Part shown: piece by piece, positions 6,091-60,553 of the stretch
Numbering within the stretch: position 1 is the stretch's first letter
How the letters are laid out: each line of letters opens with the position of its first letter
IMG/VR virus record: IMGVR_UViG_3300047509_000139
Location: 1-61,500 of that record
Direction: 5' to 3' (one strand)
DNA length: 61,500 nt
DNA from: a virus
Translations under genes and position numbers: made by a program
The notes under the pieces: generated by a model
The model's input: only the letters and a program-made list of their open reading frames with translations
The model's database searches: none
Told to the model about the DNA's origin: nothing

Positions 6091-6221
6091 GATCACGGAA
6101 TGTAGGTGCGCTTGTAAGCCATTGCTGGCCGCAACTGGAGTCGAACCAGTAACCTTCTGCTTGAAATACAGACGCTCTACCCAAGTGAACTATGCGTGTA
6201 AGCGCGCCAGTCGCCGGGAAA
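6091..6221 (-). ncRNA. tRNA-mimic Y RNA-like RNA 1 (tRNA module in standard order, anticodon UUC)
   Basis: The helix GGCGCGCTT/AAGCGCACC (one C-A mismatch) plus the 3' motif CACCTACATTCCG match the shared scaffold of RNAs 2 and 3. The module reads D-arm GTTC-ACTTGGGTA-GAGC, anticodon arm TCTGT-ATTTCAA-GCAGA (UUC, Glu-like), T-arm ACTGG-TTCGACT-CCAGT, a 4-bp remnant of the acceptor (CGCA/TGCG), then a hairpin GCCA-GCAA-TGGC. The ends are thus on the acceptor side, and no normal 7-bp acceptor or CCA end can form, so a function as an aminoacylated tRNA is unlikely. It is the first of the three in transcription order; 5' and 3' limits are approximate. Confidence 0.7.
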
Positions 6222-25848: not shown

Positions 25849-26357
25849 TGGCATACCTTCATTTTGTCTGCGATAGGATTCCCTGGTTTGACGTACTGCC
25901 TCCAGTGAATAAACTCGCTATTGTGCCAGAAACCCCACTCGCGTTCCGCCCTAAGCACGATCACGAGCGTCCAGCAGGACTTCTCAGGAACGGTTAGTCG
26001 GTGAATATAGTTTGCTGGGAAGGATCGTATCCACGGCGCTCGATATTCGCGAGCCTTTCTTCCAAACCCCACGATTGCTGAATCTGGCGTCCACTCAAAG
26101 TAGCGGCCTTTCAACCCTATCGAGATGAAGCGCTTGGGAATTATATACATGACTACCTTGGGAATAATGTATATAATTCCCAAGCGCTTCGGATGATCGT
26201 GAAGGTCCAGTGACCAATCATCGTTTACGAAATGATGAAGGTAAATTCCGCGACCGTGGCGGAGCTTTAGGACCGTCCAGCGCCAGAGGTACGTTGGGCA
26301 TCGGTTCGCGCCGTTGATCTCCTCCGGCTTCCCGAACAATCGCGTGAGTATATTCAT
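25845..26357 (-). CDS. cupin-like phage protein with an in-frame palindromic insertion
   Basis: 170 aa. GRGIYLHHFVNDDWSLDLHD, RAPWIRSFPANYIHRLTVPE and CWTLVIVLRAEREWGFWHNS match a phage family with a cupin-like barrel (conserved LHDHP, HRL and WGF). Between LHDHPKR and FISIGLKGRY there are 17 extra residues (LGIIYIIPKVVMYIIPKR) not expected in the family. They are encoded by a 51-bp insert that is almost a perfect palindrome (26,127-26,190). The frame is kept. Confidence 0.7.
   Translation of the reverse strand: MNILTRLFGKPEEINGANRCPTYLWRWTVLKLRHGRGIYLHHFVNDDWSLDLHDHPKRLGIIYIIPKVVMYIIPKRFISIGLKGRYFEWTPDSAIVGFGRKAREYRAPWIRSFPANYIHRLTVPEKSCWTLVIVLRAEREWGFWHNSEFIHWRQYVKPGNPIADKMKVCQ
26127..26190. 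repeat. 24-bp perfect inverted repeat within a coding region
   Basis: Arms 26,127-26,150 and 26,167-26,190 pair perfectly over 24 bp around a 16-nt spacer. It is A/T-rich (TATATA core) inside a G/C-richer gene. The flanking native sequence GAAGCGCTTC is itself palindromic and has been split. The copy duplicates AAGCGC at the insertion point, as an insertion would. Confidence 0.9.
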
Positions 26358-29339: not shown

Positions 29340-29430
29340 CGAAGGGATGGGAGCAGTTGGCCGCTCCGCTCGTTTGCTAAACGAGAAATCCTTTTGGGAC
29401 ACGAGGGTTCGATTCCCTCCCCTTCGGCCA
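29340..29430 (+). tRNA. tRNA-Ser (GCU)
   Basis: Acceptor CGAAGGG/CCCTTCG, loop TTGCTAA, long variable arm, T-loop TTCGATT, encoded CCA. Confidence 0.95.
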
Positions 29431-29455
29431 TAGCTCTTTGACATCTGAATCTTTT

Positions 29456-29543
29456 GGGTGGTTCGTCTAGCGGCAATGGCTCCTGGCTGTAACCCAGGCG
29501 ACGGTCTCCGTCTACATAGGTTCGAGTCCTATACCACCCACCA
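29456..29543 (+). tRNA. tRNA-Tyr (GUA)
   Basis: Acceptor GGGTGGT/ACCACCC, anticodon stem CCTGG/CCAGG, loop CTGTAAC, long variable arm, encoded CCA. Confidence 0.95.
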
Positions 29544-29546
29544 TGT

Positions 29547-29631
29547 GGCCCTCTGGCGTAATTGGCAGCCGCGCTGGTCCTAGAAACCAGTGCCTTCGGG
29601 CGTAAGAGTTCAAGTCTCTTGGGGGCCACCA
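29547..29631 (+). tRNA. tRNA-Leu (UAG)
   Basis: Acceptor GGCCCTC/GGGGGCC, anticodon loop CCTAGAA, long variable arm, T-loop TTCAAGT, encoded CCA. Confidence 0.95.
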
Positions 29632-29639
29632 AAGTTTTT

Positions 29640-29723
29640 AGGCCCGTGGTGGAACGGTTTACGCAGCGCGCTCAAAACGCGTGGTCTTCGGACATGAGGG
29701 TTCGACTCCCTCCGGGCCTACCA
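29640..29723 (+). tRNA. tRNA-Leu (CAA)
   Basis: Acceptor AGGCCCG/CGGGCCT, loop CTCAAAA, long variable arm, encoded CCA. Confidence 0.94.
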
Positions 29724-29728
29724 AAGAT

Positions 29729-29804
29729 GGGGGATAGGCTCGACTGGGAGAGCGCCGGACTCCAAACCCGGTATTGCAGAGTTCGAATCTCTGATCCCCC
29801 GCCA
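29729..29804 (+). tRNA. tRNA-Trp (CCA)
   Basis: Acceptor GGGGGAT/ATCCCCC, loop CTCCAAA; the last anticodon-stem pair is an A-C mismatch. Encoded CCA. Confidence 0.93.
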
Positions 29805-29816
29805 AGAACATAATAC

Positions 29817-29891
29817 CCAGGGGATGCTGATCGGTTAAGCGGTCGCCTGCAAAGCGACTTGTGGCGGGTTCGATTCCCGCTCCCTGGTCCA
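29817..29891 (+). tRNA. tRNA-Cys (GCA)
   Basis: Acceptor CCAGGGG/TCCCTGG, anticodon stem GTCGC/GCGAC, loop CTGCAAA, encoded CCA. Confidence 0.95.
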
Positions 29892-29892
29892 C

Positions 29893-29979
29893 GGAAGGTA
29901 GGGGGCTCTGGGATGCCCAACCAGCTTCGAATACTGGCCCTCCGCAAGGATGATCGTTCGAATCGATTACCTTCCGCCA
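29893..29979 (+). tRNA. tRNA-Ser (CGA)
   Basis: Acceptor GGAAGGT/ACCTTCC, loop TTCGAAT with a C-A closing mismatch, long variable arm, encoded CCA. Confidence 0.92.
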
Positions 29980-29986
29980 CTTTCAC

Positions 29987-30071
29987 GGAGAGTACGGCAG
30001 TAGGATCTGCAATCGGGTTTGAATTCCGACGCTCCTTCGGGATGGCCGTTCGAGTCGGCTACTCTCCTCCA
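29987..30071 (+). tRNA. tRNA-Ser (UGA)
   Basis: Acceptor GGAGAGT/ACTCTCC, loop TTTGAAT, long variable arm CGCTCCTTCGGGATG, encoded CCA. Confidence 0.93.
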
Positions 30072-30079
30072 TGCCTTGC

Positions 30080-30164
30080 AGAGAGCGCCGCCGATGGTTG
30101 GCGACCGGTTTGGAACACCGGGGATTCCTTCGGGAATGCGGTTCGATTCCGCCGCTCTCTGCCA
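30080..30164 (+). tRNA. tRNA-Ser (GGA)
   Basis: Acceptor AGAGAGC/GCTCTCT, anticodon stem CCGGT/ACCGG, loop TTGGAAC, long variable arm. Fourth serine tRNA in the array. Confidence 0.94.
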
Positions 30165-30375
30165 AAATACCTGTTGCAATGTTCAAAACTTTGCTTTAGT
30201 ATTGAATTGCGAAGGAACTGCCCTACCCAGTAGGCATTTAGACTGTTTAGACAATGATTCGAACCGTCCAATTCGGGAGAAGGCCGCAAGGAACAAATCC
30301 AACGTGCGCCGCCATCATGGCAGACACGCATGAAGGCGGTCCTTAGCCCCAGTTGAACAGGTGTTGTTAGTTTTC
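30165..30375 (+). other. non-tRNA spacer with hairpins
   Basis: About 210 nt without a gene. Contains TGCC(C)TA/TAGGCA and a 10-bp hairpin CGCC-A-TCATG/CATGA-A-GGCG, a direct repeat TTTAGAC, and a possible promoter (TTGCAA at 30,174, TAGTAT 17 nt on). Could be a small RNA or a decayed tRNA stretch; no full tRNA folds here. Confidence 0.4.
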
Positions 30376-30413
30376 AACGGGGCTGATCGAAAGATTGGCC
30401 CCGTTTTGTTTTT
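30376..30413 (+). terminator. rho-independent terminator inside the tRNA array
   Basis: AACGGGGC and GCCCCGTT form an 8-bp stem around a 14-nt loop, followed by TTTTGTTTTT. Lies directly before tRNA-Pro, so part of the array may be expressed separately or by read-through. Confidence 0.85.
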
Positions 30414-30414
30414 G

Positions 30415-30488
30415 CGGGGTGTAGCTGGAAGGTCGAGCCCGTGGCCTGGGACCACGAGATTGGAGTTCAATTCTCCACACCCCGACCA
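30415..30488 (+). tRNA. tRNA-Pro (UGG)
   Basis: Acceptor CGGGGTG/CACCCCG, anticodon stem CGTGG/CCACG, loop CCTGGGA, encoded CCA. Confidence 0.94.
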
Positions 30489-30495
30489 TGAGTTT

Positions 30496-30573
30496 CGGGA
30501 TGTAGCGCAGTCTGGTCAGCGCACACGCCTCGGGCGCGTGGGGCCGCTGGTTCGAATCCAGCCATCCAGACCA
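30496..30573 (+). tRNA. tRNA-Pro (CGG)
   Basis: Acceptor CGGGATG/CATCCAG with a mismatch at pair 2, anticodon stem CACGC/GCGTG, loop CTCGGGC, encoded CCA. Confidence 0.92.
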
Positions 30574-30578
30574 AGTTC

Positions 30579-30650
30579 GCTGCGGCGAGAATCGTCACGG
30601 AAGACGGGATGCTGCTGTAAGGGCGATAACCGTAGCACCCGCGCCACAGC
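30579..30650 (+). ncRNA. 72-nt structured RNA between tRNA genes
   Basis: The ends pair as GCTGcGGCG/CGCCaCAGC (8 bp plus one C-A). Inside are CGTC-ACGGAA-GACG and CGGG(A)TGCT/AGCA(C)CCG. It has tRNA length and a closing stem like an acceptor but no T-loop or CCA, so it is not a normal tRNA. A TTGACA box follows at 30,662. Confidence 0.45.
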
Positions 30651-30688
30651 GATTCAGTTCTTTGACAATTGAAAGTCTTGATTCATAA

Positions 30689-30762
30689 GCGGGCGTGGTA
30701 TAGAGGCCGTGCCCTGGGCTTCCAACCCAGAGACGAGGATTCGAATTCCTCCACCCGCTCCA
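30689..30762 (+). tRNA. tRNA-Gly (UCC)
   Basis: Acceptor GCGGGCG/CACCCGC (one C-A mismatch), anticodon stem CTGGG/CCCAG, loop CTTCCAA. Confidence 0.93.
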
Positions 30763-30770
30763 ATTTGCTT

Positions 30771-30845
30771 GCTGGGTTCGTCTAGCGGCTAGGATTGGGC
30801 GTTGCCAATGCTCAGACACGGGTTCGAGTCCCGTACCCCGCACCA
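30771..30845 (+). tRNA. tRNA-Gly (GCC)
   Basis: Acceptor GCTGGGT/ACCCCGC (one T-C mismatch), loop TTGCCAA with G-T pairs in the anticodon stem, T-loop TTCGAGT. Confidence 0.9.
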
Positions 30846-30846
30846 T

Positions 30847-30921
30847 GCCGGAATAGCTCAGGTGGAAGAGCACCTCACTCGTAACGAGGAGATCTGGTTT
30901 CGATTACCAGTTCTGGCTCCA
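30847..30921 (+). tRNA. tRNA-Thr (CGU)
   Basis: Acceptor GCCGGAA/TTCTGGC, loop CTCGTAA with an A-C closing mismatch, encoded CCA. Confidence 0.92.
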
Positions 30922-30995
30922 GCCGGTATAGCTCAGTGGAAGAGCAGTTGCTTGGTAAGCAACCGACGAGCGTTCAATTCGCTCTGCTGGCTCCA
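30922..30995 (+). tRNA. tRNA-Thr (GGU)
   Basis: Acceptor GCCGGTA/TGCTGGC, anticodon stem GTTGC/GCAAC, loop TTGGTAA. Abuts the previous tRNA without spacer. Confidence 0.94.
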
Positions 30996-31001
30996 AGTTT
31001 T

Positions 31002-31076
31002 GCCGCGCAAGCATTGCTGGCGATGCGCTGCTCCTGTAAAGCAGTGAATTCCGTTCGATTCGGAAGCGTGGCTCCA
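31002..31076 (+). tRNA. tRNA-Thr (UGU)
   Basis: Acceptor GCCGCGC/GCGTGGC, anticodon stem CTGCT/AGCAG, loop CCTGTAA, T-loop TTCGATT. Confidence 0.93.
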
Positions 31077-31077
31077 T

Positions 31078-31154
31078 CCCCTCCAAGCTCTCCGGGTGGG
31101 CGCTCGTCTGATACGCGAGTTATCGACTGTGTTCGATTCACAGGGAGGGGACCA
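31078..31154 (+). tRNA. tRNA-Ile (GAU)
   Basis: Acceptor CCCCTCC/GGAGGGG, loop CTGATAC, T-loop TTCGATT, encoded CCA. Confidence 0.92.
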
Positions 31155-31201
31155 AGTTCTATTGCGGAACCCGGTGCGTTATGCCGTAGCATATAAGCTT
31201 A

Positions 31202-31550
31202 ATGGCGAACCGATACGCATACGTAAAGAAGGCAATTGCTAAAAGGAAACTCTGGGCCGACAAACTTAAGGATCGTCCATGTGAGCGATGTGGTATCAGG
31301 TATCCGCCATGTTGTCATGGAGTGGCATCATAGAGATCGAGCCAAGAAGTCCTTTGGGATTGGCCCAGGCAATTTTACGCGCAGTCGCAAGTTGTTACTT
31401 GAAGAGATTGCCAAGTGCGATTTGTATTGCGCTAACTGTCATCGTTTGGTTGAGGAATCATTGCGGCGAAGTGGACCGGTGCCATGCGAGGCTCATAACC
31501 TCAGCGAGTCCGTTCAACTCGGAACGCCGCAACCATTTTTGGGGTGCTAG
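31202..31550 (+). CDS. HNH endonuclease gene in the tRNA array, broken by a +1 shift
   Basis: Starts MANRYAYVKKAIAKRKLWAD, then DRPCERCGIRYPPCC. The frame soon stops, but the +1 frame continues VMEWHHRDRAKKSFGIGPGN and LLEEIAKCDLYCANCHRLVE, completing an HNH domain (two Cys pairs and the HH motif). The shift lies at about 31,310 (CATGTTGTC). The 3' end runs through tRNA-Met, so its natural stop is uncertain. Typical freestanding homing endonuclease next to a tRNA gene. Confidence 0.7.
31462..31535 (+). tRNA. tRNA-Met (CAU)
   Basis: Acceptor TGCGGCG/CGCCGCA, anticodon stem GAGG/CCTC plus a C-A mismatch, loop CTCATAA, encoded CCA. Whether it is the initiator or elongator type, or tRNA-Ile2 precursor, is not clear. 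It overlaps the 3' end of the HNH frame. Confidence 0.85.
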
Positions 31551-31616
31551 CTCATTCAGGAGAGCGCCGGTCCTGCAAACCGGAGGCGCTGGGGGCAGAG
31601 CCCAGGCATTCCACCA
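31541..31616 (+). tRNA. tRNA-Ala (UGC), unusual T-loop
   Basis: Acceptor GGGGTGC/GCATTCC, anticodon stem CCGGT/ACCGG, loop CCTGCAA. The T-loop is GGCAGAG instead of TTCRANY; stem CTGGG/CCCAG is intact. Encoded CCA. Confidence 0.85.
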
Positions 31617-31621
31617 TTTTC

Positions 31622-31697
31622 GCAGGGGAGGCCGTCGTGGTCGAGGCGCTGGCCTGAAAAGCCAGACAAGCACGTTCGATTCGTGCCCCCTGCACCA
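31622..31697 (+). tRNA. tRNA-Phe (GAA)
   Basis: Acceptor GCAGGGG/CCCCTGC, anticodon stem CTGGC/GCCAG, loop CTGAAAA, T-loop TTCGATT. Confidence 0.94.
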
Positions 31698-31700
31698 GAT

Positions 31701-31775
31701 GTGACCGTGGCCGAGTGGCTTAGGCGTGCGGCTGTGAACCGCTCCACGAGAGTTCAATTCTCTCCGGTCACCCCA
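31701..31775 (+). tRNA. tRNA-His (GUG)
   Basis: Acceptor GTGACCG/CGGTCAC, anticodon stem GCGG/CCGC plus T-T, loop CTGTGAA, encoded CCA. Confidence 0.93.
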
Positions 31776-31782
31776 TTGTTGA

Positions 31783-31857
31783 TGGCGGGTCGTTCAGTGG
31801 CCAGGACGGCAGATTTTGAATCTGTTCACGCCGGTTCGAGTCCGGCCCCGCTAACCA
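31783..31857 (+). tRNA. tRNA-Gln (UUG)
   Basis: Acceptor TGGCGGG/CCCGCTA, anticodon stem GCAGA/TCTGT, loop TTTTGAA, T-loop TTCGAGT. Confidence 0.93.
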
Positions 31858-31858
31858 T

Positions 31859-31933
31859 AGCCGGTTCATTCAGCGCTTAGGATTCCTGGCTCTGACCCAG
31901 GCCACGAAGGTTGAAATCCTTCACCGGCTACCA
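31859..31933 (+). tRNA. tRNA-Gln (CUG), unusual T-loop
   Basis: Acceptor AGCCGGT/ACCGGCT, anticodon stem CCTGG/CCAGG, loop CTCTGAC. T-loop reads TTGAAAT, with G where C56 is expected. Confidence 0.9.
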
Positions 31934-31940
31934 TTTTCAA

Positions 31941-32018
31941 GCCCCCGTCGTTCAATGGATTAGGATACTGCGCTACGAACGCAGAGATTTGTAGGTTCGA
32001 GTCCTACCGGGGGTACCA
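31941..32018 (+). tRNA. tRNA-Arg (ACG)
   Basis: Acceptor GCCCCCG/CGGGGGT, anticodon stem CTGCG/CGCAG, loop CTACGAA; A34 would need conversion to inosine by TadA. Confidence 0.94.
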
Positions 32019-32022
32019 TTTT

Positions 32023-32100
32023 GACCGTGTAGCTCAGTTGGAAACGAGCGCTGTCCTCCGAAGGCAGAGGCCGCTGGTTCGATCCCAGCCACGGTCACCA
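32023..32100 (+). tRNA. tRNA-Arg (CCG)
   Basis: Acceptor GACCGTG/CACGGTC, loop CTCCGAA, T-loop TTCGATC, encoded CCA. Confidence 0.93.
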
Positions 32101-32108
32101 AAGTTTAT

Positions 32109-32183
32109 GGGCGCGTCTTCCAGCGGCCAGGATGGGGCTCTGTCTAAGCCTCGACGGGAGTTCAACTCTCCTCGCGCCCGCCA
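32109..32183 (+). tRNA. tRNA-Asp (GUC)
   Basis: Acceptor GGGCGCG/CGCGCCC, anticodon stem GGGCT/AGCCT, loop CTGTCTA, T-loop TTCAACT. Confidence 0.93.
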
Positions 32184-32189
32184 TATTAC

Positions 32190-32266
32190 GTCCGCATGGT
32201 GCAGACGGCTAGCATACCTGATTCTCAATCAGGAGATCGCGGGTTCGAGTCCCGCTGCGGACGCCA
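32190..32266 (+). tRNA. tRNA-Glu (CUC)
   Basis: Acceptor GTCCGCA/TGCGGAC, anticodon stem CCTGA/TCAGG, loop TTCTCAA, encoded CCA. Confidence 0.94.
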
Positions 32267-32267
32267 C

Positions 32268-32343
32268 GGCCCAGAGCACGAACGGATGAGTGCCCTGACT
32301 TTCAATCAGGTGACAGTGGGGTCAGCACCCACCTGGGCTACCA
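32268..32343 (+). tRNA. tRNA-Glu (UUC), unusual T-loop
   Basis: Acceptor GGCCCAG/CTGGGCT, D-stem GCAC/GTGC, anticodon stem CCTGA/TCAGG, loop CTTTCAA. T-loop GTCAGCA instead of TTCRANY, stem GTGGG/CCCAC intact. Confidence 0.88.
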
Positions 32344-32350
32344 AGTTTTC

Positions 32351-32425
32351 GGGACCAAAGCTTAGATGGCGAAGCAGGAGGCTCTTAACCTTCAGAACTC
32401 GGTTCGATTCCGAGTGGTCCCACCA
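32351..32425 (+). tRNA. tRNA-Lys (CUU)
   Basis: Acceptor GGGACCA/TGGTCCC, loop CTCTTAA, T-loop TTCGATT. Confidence 0.94.
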
Positions 32426-32431
32426 AGTTGT

Positions 32432-32518
32432 TGGCAGGTACCCGAGCGGTAGCAGGGATCTGGCTGTTAACCAGACGGCGCAAGCCCATCGCAGGTTCGA
32501 ATCCTGCCCTGCCAGCCA
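32432..32518 (+). tRNA. tRNA-Asn (GUU)
   Basis: Acceptor TGGCAGG/CCTGCCA, anticodon stem TCTGG/CCAGA, loop CTGTTAA. The variable region is long (CGGCGCAAGCCCATC), unusual for tRNA-Asn. Confidence 0.92.
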
Positions 32519-32526
32519 ACATTCGA

Positions 32527-32600
32527 TTCCTGGTCGTCCAACGGCAGGGCGGTGTTCTTATAAAGCACTTACGGTGGTTCGACTCCACCCCAGGGAACCA
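32527..32600 (+). tRNA. tRNA-Ile (UAU)
   Basis: Acceptor TTCCTGG/CCAGGGA, anticodon stem GTGTT/AGCAC, loop CTTATAA; reads AUA directly. Confidence 0.93.
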
Positions 32601-32601
32601 T

Positions 32602-32680
32602 GCGGGAGTCACCGGTATTGGCATCCGGTCCTAGTCCTACAAACTAGTGATTGCTGGTTCAATTCCAGCCTCCCGTACCA
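32602..32680 (+). tRNA. tRNA-Val (UAC)
   Basis: Acceptor GCGGGAG/CTCCCGT, anticodon stem CTAGT/ACTAG, loop CCTACAA, T-loop TTCAATT. Confidence 0.93.
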
Positions 32681-32685
32681 TTTTC

Positions 32686-32761
32686 GGGAAGGTAGCTCAA
32701 ACGGCAGAGCGCAGTCCTTTTAAGTCTGGCGATCGGGGTTCGAGGCCCCGCCTTCCCACCA
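32686..32761 (+). tRNA. tRNA-Lys (UUU)
   Basis: Acceptor GGGAAGG/CCTTCCC, loop CTTTTAA, one T-T mismatch in the anticodon stem, T-loop TTCGAGG. Confidence 0.91.
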
Positions 32762-32763
32762 AG

Positions 32764-32842
32764 ATCCCCGTATCGGTCCTGTTTCCTAAACAGGTAAAGC
32801 CGTAATTGGACGATGCGAGTTCGAGTCTCGCCGGGGATACCA
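32764..32842 (+). tRNA. tRNA-Arg (CCU) without a normal D-arm
   Basis: Acceptor ATCCCCG/CGGGGAT and T-arm GCGAG-TTCGAGT-CTCGC are standard. The anticodon arm CCTGT-TTCCTAA-ACAGG follows the acceptor after only TATCGGT. A D-loop-like piece GCCGTAATTGGACGAT lies between anticodon arm and T-arm, and CGGT before the anticodon arm can pair with GCCG after it. Encoded CCA. Confidence 0.8.
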
Positions 32843-32843
32843 C

Positions 32844-32920
32844 GGGCGCGTACCGGCCTCGGTTTCTACCCGAGTTCACCGTAATGGACGATGCGGGTTC
32901 AAGTCCCGCCGCGCCTTCCA
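32844..32920 (+). tRNA. tRNA-Arg (UCU) without a normal D-arm
   Basis: Acceptor GGGCGCG/CGCGCCT, TACCGGC, anticodon arm CTCGG-TTTCTAC-CCGAG, then TTCACCGTAATGGACGAT and T-arm GCGGG-TTCAAGT-CCCGC. Same rearrangement as the preceding tRNA-Arg. Confidence 0.8.
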
Positions 32921-59837: not shown

Positions 59838-60518
59838 TTACGCGGCACCTACTGCATCAGTGATAGACATTTGGATTTTCGCGGCGAGCACATTGTCCAC
59901 GGGTGCCATAAACTCATGCTGGCCGACGTATCCCTTGAACGTCAGCGTACCGGCAGAGTTCGGGAAGATCATCTGCAAGCCCGTCAGGACCAGACCGACC
60001 ATCTGGTTCCACATACCAGTCGTGAACGACTGAGTGGCGTCGGCCTTGTTGAAGTTGACCTCGAAGCTGATGTCTCCGCCGTCGATCAGTACGGCCAGTT
60101 TGCGCCGCCAGAATCCCGGCGTGTCATGCGTCGTGATATCGACCACATGTGGCTTAACTGTAGGACCGGTGATCGACCGGACTTGTGTGATCGCGGCGTA
60201 CGTCGGAGGTGACGCTACGTCGCTCATGTTCAAACTGTTGTGTTGCGACCGGGATCGCTACTCCCGACCTTCTGCCGGTTTCCTCGGCAGCACAGACTAT
60301 ATCATCACCCTGTTTTAAAGGGCGTCTCGCGCTTCCAGCCGCTTGGCCGTACGTGCTCTCGCACTAGTCGTTGAACCTGCCCATTTCTGGGATTGGCTGC
60401 TGATTACCATGAGCATATGCTTTTAGGCTTCCCAGCAATTCACGAGATTATTCACTGACCGGTTACCCGGTCAGGCCACAGATTGGGCCATGGTGCCCTT
60501 CGCGGTTGTGATGGCCAT
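59838..60518 (-). CDS. tail tube (major tail) protein, interrupted by a group I intron
   Basis: Exon 1: ATG 60518 to 60478 (MAITTAKGTMAQS plus GT). Exon 2: 60234 to 59838. Spliced length 438 nt gives 145 aa, in frame: MAITTAKGTMAQSVL then NMSDVASPPTYAAITQVRS. AVLIDGGDISFEVNFNKAD and GLQMIFPNSAGTLTFKGYVG match phage tail tube proteins. Without splicing exon 1 stops after 14 codons, and a start at ATG 60227 gives a truncated 129-aa form. Confidence 0.82.
60235..60477 (-). ncRNA. group I intron
   Basis: 243 nt, read on the minus strand, GGCCTGACC... to ...CACAACAG. Hallmarks: CTGACCGG-GTAA-CCGGTCAG hairpin near the 5' end, P4/P6 elements (AATTGCTGGGA, AATCAGCAGCC), P7 strands GTTCAACGACTA and GATATAGTC, GTGC-GAGA-GCAC, and 3' hairpins CTGCCG-7 nt-CGGCAG and CGGGA/TCCCG. 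The 5' exon ends in U and the intron in G, as required. No endonuclease inside; an orphan HNH gene lies nearby. Confidence 0.88.
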
Positions 60519-60553
60519 AAGACCTTTAACTCCTTTTTAGCGTTCGAACGGTG

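Follow-up and report, generated by a model that had tools for sequence, protein, structure and literature searches.

Two phage tRNA-Arg genes with a transposed D-arm segment point to a family of putative non-circularly permuted tRNAs

Two adjacent genes in the window analysed here, the 61,500 nucleotides (nt) at positions 1-61,500 of the virus record IMGVR_UViG_3300047509_000139 in the IMG/VR database, very probably encode natural, non-circularly permuted transfer RNAs (tRNAs) that keep the L-shape and decode AGA and AGG. These are hereafter called gene A and gene B (Table 1), and coordinates refer to the window unless a locus or accession is named. In both, the equivalents of positions of about 10 to 20 of a tRNA, namely the 5' D-stem strand together with the D-loop that carries G18, G19 and A20, appear to have been relocated from the gap between U8 and A21 to a site that follows the anticodon arm and precedes position 48. 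The predicted chain runs acceptor, U8, A, 22 to 26, anticodon arm, linker, 10 to 20, linker, U48, T-arm, acceptor and CCA. The D-stem would form across the anticodon arm, with D-stem and anticodon stem making up one interrupted hairpin, and the overall structure would be a three-way junction, not a cloverleaf. Retained contacts (U8, A14, 15-48, and G18 and G19 with the T-loop) predict a normal L-shape. The products are expected to be transcribed, processed by RNase P and at the CCA end, arginylated by the host arginyl-tRNA synthetase via A20, C35 and U36, and used on AGA and AGG codons, completing the phage's own tRNA set. Comparison with relatives suggests that they probably belong to a class of natural tRNAs, carried by phages and permuted non-circularly, that works on arginine and isoleucine codons with the same fold on another chain topology.

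Structure and detection of genes A and B

The first-pass annotation had described tRNA-Arg genes at 32764-32920 with D-arm material 3' of the anticodon arm, normal acceptor, anticodon and T-arms, and just 7 nt from acceptor to anticodon arm. Reading of the sequence bore out this description. The body of gene A (32764-32839) is followed by CCA at 32840-32842; its acceptor has 7 base pairs (bp; ATCCCCG/CGGGGAT) and its 5-bp anticodon stem carries the loop TTCCTAA, with anticodon CCU for codon AGG. The body of gene B (32844-32917) is followed by CCA at 32918-32920, with acceptor GGGCGCG/CGCGCCT and anticodon loop TTTCTAC, giving anticodon UCU for codon AGA. Between the anticodon arm and the T-arm, gene A reads TAAAG-CCGTAATTGGA-CGAT and gene B reads TTCA-CCGTAATGGA-CGAT. 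The earlier statement that the D-arm had moved holds for the 5' strand and loop (10-20) but not for the 3' strand, which is kept in front as the 7-nt spacer; the two strands pair across the anticodon arm. The spacer is read as U8, an A, and D-stem 3' strand 22-26, and the downstream string as 10-13 followed by A14 A15 (U16 U17) G18 G19 N20.

Table 1. Coordinates of the tRNA array, of the two putative permuted tRNA genes and of their parts.
Feature	Position	Strand	Basis or remark
Array of 30 ordinary tRNA genes, closed by genes A and B	29340..32761	+	ARAGORN
Gene A, putative permuted tRNA-Arg, anticodon CCU, encoded CCA	32764..32842	+	sequence read; family covariance model 80.6 bits
Gene A 7-nt spacer TATCGGT (U8, one A as 9 or 21, D-stem 3' strand 22-25, N26)	32771..32777	+	pairs with 32800-32802
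Gene A anticodon arm, anticodon CCT at 32785-32787	32778..32794	+	sequence read
Gene A linker TAAAG, anticodon arm to D-stem 5' strand	32795..32799	+	sequence read; 3-8 nt across 122 relatives
Gene A transposed segment (D-stem 5' strand CCG(T), D-loop A14 A15 TT G18 G19 A20)	32800..32810	+	
Gene A linker CGAT, last base U48 the Levitt partner of A15 (32805)	32811..32814	+	
Gene A T-arm, GCGAG-TTCGAGT-CTCGC	32815..32831	+	sequence read
Gene B, putative permuted tRNA-Arg, anticodon UCU, encoded CCA	32844..32920	+	sequence read; family covariance model 70.1 bits
Gene B spacer TACCGGC (U8, one A, D-stem 3' strand 22-25, N26)	32851..32857	+	pairs with 32879-32881
Gene B anticodon arm, anticodon TCT at 32865-32867	32858..32874	+	sequence read
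Gene B transposed segment (D-stem 5' strand CCG(T), D-loop A14 A15 T G18 G19 A20)	32879..32888	+	
Gene B T-arm, GCGGG-TTCAAGT-CCCGC	32893..32909	+	sequence read

Neither gene was reported by ARAGORN run on the window, and neither was matched in a whole-window search with Rfam RF00005. When a short stretch was scored against this tRNA model, a check proposed in the first-pass annotation, the outcome was divided: gene B reached 35.3 bits (gathering cut-off 29) with its D-arm aligned as deleted, and gene A gave no match. No further Rfam family fitted either gene in a search of the short stretch and the array. A suggested link to Y-type RNAs in this genome found no support, as no Rfam Y-RNA family reached its threshold in the array (best, YrlA at 22.1 bits against a gathering value of 69, on ordinary tRNA genes). 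A family covariance model was trained on 93 sequences, genes A and B among them. Under this model members score about 41 bits or more, most of them 55-88, whereas ordinary tRNAs stay at about 20-35, and other sites in the window score at most 24.4 bits against the values of genes A and B in Table 1. A descriptor blind to the D-arm gave 177 distinct hits in 2.4 Mb of fetched loci compared with 2-12 in five Markov replicates of that DNA. Because the model scores far exceed those of other window sites and the descriptor hits far exceed the replicates, genes A and B are not chance occurrences.

Relatives of the two genes

The first relatives found by BLAST were in Stenotrophomonas phage SOVA965 and Vibrio phage 1.170.O, both genes unannotated. 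In the Vibrio phage gene the spacer holds CGC and the downstream string GCG, compared with CGG/CCG in the window, a compensatory change; Rhodococcus phage Trina has UCC/GGA at the same D-stem positions. Other searches returned less: the exact pattern CCGTAATNGGACGATGCG gave only a chance match (locus L005), and blastn with the whole tRNA array (11-nt words) matched other phages only at individual ordinary tRNAs and revealed no close relative of the virus.

Relatives were gathered by pattern scans of IMG/VR viral contigs that differ in bias. One scan fixed the spacer, the D-segment and A20 and left the anticodon free; one fixed the anticodon loop CTTCTAA, TAAT, ATG and TTCGA and left the spacer and D-stem free; one required a base other than A at position 20; and three left the anticodon and position 20 free, one of which also left position 48 free and required G15. 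A descriptor on the acceptor, anticodon and T-arms that did not demand D-stem pairing retained 122 members, and the addition of two demanded D-stem pairs gave 157 distinct members, to which the later free scans add about 80. CCA is encoded in 69 of the 122.

Covariation of the D-stem and tertiary contacts

In the 122-member set, unselected for D-stem pairing, pair 24-11 is Watson-Crick in every member (GC 76, UA 16, AU 15, CG 15), as is pair 23-12 (CG 98, UA 13, GC 7, AU 4). In the alignment of 93 sequences all pairs of the four helices show two-sided changes, and the covariation score of the whole structure is 0.947, compared with 0.22 after shuffling and no more than 0.17 when the structure is slid. 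The cross-arm D-stem helix was recovered unprompted by RNAalifold. In the same alignment the acceptor helix is 98.3% paired, with two-sided changes in 7/7 pairs, and the T-arm is 99.4% paired, with T-loop TTCRA. The anticodon stem has 5 bp and a 7-nt loop with U33; its pair 27-43 is open in 38 of the 93 members and closed in genes A and B. Four-bp anticodon stems have been tied to wider decoding in bacteria (PMC13092985).

Evidence for the tertiary fold came from the Levitt pair, which covaries among members where the search left position 48 free: A15 occurs with U48 in 43 of 45, and G15 with C48 in 39 of 41. U8, A14, G18, G19 and the T-loop TTC are retained in the family, although U8, A14, G18 and G19 were themselves demanded by the search or filter and hence do not count as independent evidence of conservation. 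When segment 10-20 was restored between positions 8 and 21, detection by ARAGORN rose from 0/157 to 155/157; shuffled segments gave 88-104/157, moving the linkers instead gave 39, and deletion of the segment gave 0. The A after U8 may be position 9 or 21, and both placements work in this re-ordering test. In solved tRNAs A21 contacts the U8-A14 pair, and a direct link between 8 and 21 would therefore be geometrically reasonable. Two putative permuted tRNAs, at L172:10185-10274 (-) with anticodon ACG and at L178:3407-3493 (+) with anticodon UCG, have an extra hairpin between bases 20 and 48 that resembles a long variable arm.

A local D hairpin between the acceptor and anticodon arms is absent from both genes, where 7 nt lie between the arms and the D-stem strands flank the anticodon arm. 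Shifting the arms, which might have restored a normal cloverleaf, did not succeed. That the genes encode D-armless tRNAs with a long variable region, working like D-armless mitochondrial tRNAs and carrying the D-loop-like motif incidentally, is very unlikely. The short connector and the deletion of the D-arm of gene B by the Rfam tRNA model would fit such a molecule, and an artificial D-armless tRNA-His is functional in E. coli (PMC11551756), but two spacer/downstream pairs are Watson-Crick throughout the 122 members, the 15-48 pair covaries, and the A20/U20 of the moved loop tracks the anticodon (see below). The D-arm is thus not lost: its stem covaries and its loop is conserved, in another order.

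The acceptor 5' and 3' strands of both genes are in normal order, and the genes are not circularly permuted. It is extremely improbable that only the gene is permuted and that cutting and rejoining turn its RNA into a tRNA of normal order, the route taken by circularly permuted and split genes. Processing of this kind exists for circularly permuted tRNA genes, as mentioned in PMC10085705, but with both ends already in place it would here need internal excision and reinsertion. The linkers vary in length and sequence, and a common splice motif was not seen. No excise-and-reinsert step for tRNAs is known in bacteria. Splicing or re-ligation was rejected, with no sign of it found and both ends in normal order. 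Because of the 15-48 covariation, the kept contacts and the re-ordering test, a non-circular permutation is the description that suits the molecule best, and in it, as judged by covariation, the same elements stand in another order and contacts are kept. It would be a tRNA by function and contacts, yet outside the chain order that defines the cloverleaf.

Aminoacylation identity

In members with arginine anticodons (UCU, CCU, ACG, UCG and GCG) position 20 is A in 133 of 134, and in those with anticodons UAU, CAU and GAU it is U in 22 of 23, with A73 in 23/23. The split of A20 and U20 by anticodon recurs in later scans, and in the three scans with both anticodon and position 20 free, hits with sound acceptor and T-arms were all of arginine or isoleucine type. 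Bacterial arginine determinants are A20, C35, U/G36, A/G73 and U73, and those for isoleucine are A73, U20, A35 and U36 (PMC9976931). Genes A and B both carry A20, C35 and U36, with A73 in gene A and U73 in gene B, and both agree with the arginine determinants. The GAU member of Bacteroides phage 'tikkala' shows, on its sequence, the second branch to be of isoleucine type, and CAU members could be Ile2 or Met. That the free scans yielded these two types alone would be hard to understand if the RNAs were not charged. One UAU member (L069:1726-1802) retains A20, perhaps reflecting a recent change from arginine to isoleucine via base 35.

Array context and probable role in decoding

Genes A and B close an array of ordinary tRNA genes. 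By ARAGORN on the window, the array has ordinary tRNA-Arg genes with anticodons ACG and CCG, and an ordinary UCU or CCU gene is absent. Among loci with at least five ordinary tRNAs, an ordinary UCU gene occurs in 5 of 68 loci with a permuted UCU gene compared with 12 of 19 where the permuted gene is of another type (Fisher p = 1e-6, a value weakened by the phylogenetic non-independence of the loci). Of the arginine codons in the longer open reading frames (ORFs) of the window, 8% are AGA and 11% are AGG; both codons are rare in many hosts. Because UCU and CCU are missing from the ordinary set, permuted UCU genes rarely stand beside ordinary ones, and the ORFs use AGA and AGG, the two genes most likely serve translation of these codons.

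It is unlikely that the RNAs are instead tRNA mimics outside translation, such as regulatory RNAs or decoys against host defences that cleave tRNAs. Charging is predicted from sequence, which would leave room for mimicry, and some phage defences do cut tRNAs, Septu being described in PMC13096335 as cleaving the variable loop of tRNA-Tyr. Mimicry would not, however, account for identity elements and anticodons that change jointly, canonical anticodon loops, the filling of gaps in the ordinary tRNA set and the encoded CCA of 69/122 members.

HNH-like ORFs lie within 150 nt of 44 of 234 permuted tRNA genes and of 67 of 1293 ordinary ones in the fetched loci, which are not independent. This more frequent adjacency is what might be expected of decaying tRNA pseudogenes or leftovers of homing-endonuclease activity, but across 93 diverse sequences all four helices are preserved and show compensatory changes, and anticodons and identity elements are conserved. 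There is next to no chance that the genes are such remnants, and simple decay was ruled out by covariation. Functional permuted tRNAs may have spread by escape from host tRNA-cutting enzymes, by resistance of the gene to homing endonucleases, or by chance in a mobile gene pool; with regard to the first, rewiring may hide permuted tRNAs from host enzymes that attack ordinary ones.

Several points weigh against reading genes A and B as working permuted tRNAs. Gene structure, covariation of the D-stem and of 15-48, and the anticodon-linked identity elements are direct observations; transcription, maturation of the ends, charging and decoding are predictions from sequence. Pair 25-10 is Watson-Crick in 102 of the 122 members and open in 20, pair 22-13 is mostly U.U or C.U, and the firm pairs of the D-stem number two or three. 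Given the detections with shuffled segments, the ARAGORN re-ordering test is just mildly specific. The U73 of gene B is less usual for arginine than A or G, though listed for bacterial tRNA-Arg (PMC9976931), and the dependence among loci weakens the p-values.

Distribution and annotation

The same arrangement was found in other phages, as the first-pass annotation had proposed to check: in a set of 50,697 phage records, about 240 align with one member along 80% or more of its length. These include phi92, 121Q, wV8, Felixounaviruses (Felix O1), Justusliebigviruses, Klebsiella phages Sugarland and KB57, Proteus phage Mydo, Streptomyces phage Yaboi, Rhodococcus phage Trina, Pseudomonas phage PA11 and others. 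Isolated phages with the family have hosts in Escherichia, Salmonella, Klebsiella, Pseudomonas, Stenotrophomonas, Vibrio, Streptomyces, Rhodococcus and Bacteroides, and members occur in garuso and tootiki, which infect E. coli K-12. An origin in the hosts was considered and rejected: the phi92 member had no match among 5,426 E. coli genomes, and when 84,980 species genomes were scanned strictly, five hits resulted, three of which carry family members; a Devosia member adjoins an integrase and a tRNA-Lys, and a member binned as Parachlamydia is on a small tRNA-rich contig that is phage-like in look.

Among opened records the genes are unannotated, labelled 'tRNA-OTHER' or wrongly assigned, for example as tRNA-Val(aac) in Streptomyces phage Yaboi (L277:5501-5578) and as tRNA-Leu(taa) in phage 121Q (L272:395-473). 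In Felix O1 (NC_005282, about 25951-26029; L279:2952-3030) an unannotated putative permuted tRNA-Arg(UCU) overlaps the annotated start of an HNH gene; the authors of that genome expected a tRNA for AGA and found none (PMC3185647). No description of a phage tRNA family with a permuted D-arm was found in the open-access full-text literature searched.

Relation to known systems and significance

The family is like ordinary bacterial tRNA-Arg (UCU/CCU) and tRNA-Ile in its acceptor, anticodon and T-arms, U8, A14, 15-48, G18 and G19, identity base 20 and often-encoded CCA. It differs in that the D-stem 5' strand and D-loop follow the anticodon arm, a local D hairpin is absent and the predicted fold is a three-way junction. 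Like D-armless and minimal mitochondrial tRNAs, its members have a short acceptor-anticodon connector and escape standard tRNA finders, but there the D-arm is gone, whereas this family, in bacterial phages, keeps it reordered with covarying pairs. Circularly permuted and split tRNA genes share a non-standard order of tRNA parts; as mentioned in PMC10085705, they have their 5' and 3' parts exchanged, and processing then yields the normal tRNA, whereas in the phage family an internal segment is transposed and the ends are normal. Allo-tRNAs, selC-type tRNA-Cys, tRNA-Sec and tRNA-Pyl are natural tRNAs of odd arm size (PMC7609411), in contrast to the odd arm order seen here; that review of non-canonical tRNAs mentions neither phages nor permutation.

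Another close parallel is offered by hammerhead ribozymes with a non-circular permutation (Eckert et al. 2023, PMC10085705), in which the same parts and contacts likewise stand in a different, non-circular order. Those are self-cleaving ribozymes validated by experiment, whereas the tRNA permutation is supported by covariation. According to that paper, natural RNAs had offered no earlier case of non-circular permutation (PMC10085705), and the phage tRNAs, if true, would be a second kind of RNA with one, after the hammerheads. Confirmation by experiment would break the rule of cloverleaf wiring for all bacterial tRNAs. With contacts kept and connectivity changed, the family would also make testable the old question of whether synthetases, EF-Tu and the ribosome read shape or chain order. 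It would correct annotation as well, since ordinary tools overlook permuted tRNA genes or give a wrong anticodon.

Other features of the window

An HNH-like endonuclease ORF lies inside the tRNA array at 31236-31550. Three tRNA-like genes missed by ARAGORN are at 32267-32341 (anticodon TTC, T-loop GTCAGCA), 31464-31537 (CAT) and 31541-31613 (TGC); the last scores 38.4 bits with Rfam, and the coordinates of the TTC and CAT genes were read by eye. A lone tRNA match absent from the ARAGORN output lies far from the array at 6130-6196 (-; Rfam 43.7 bits), and a group I intron is found at 60272-60537 (-; Rfam 78.8 bits).
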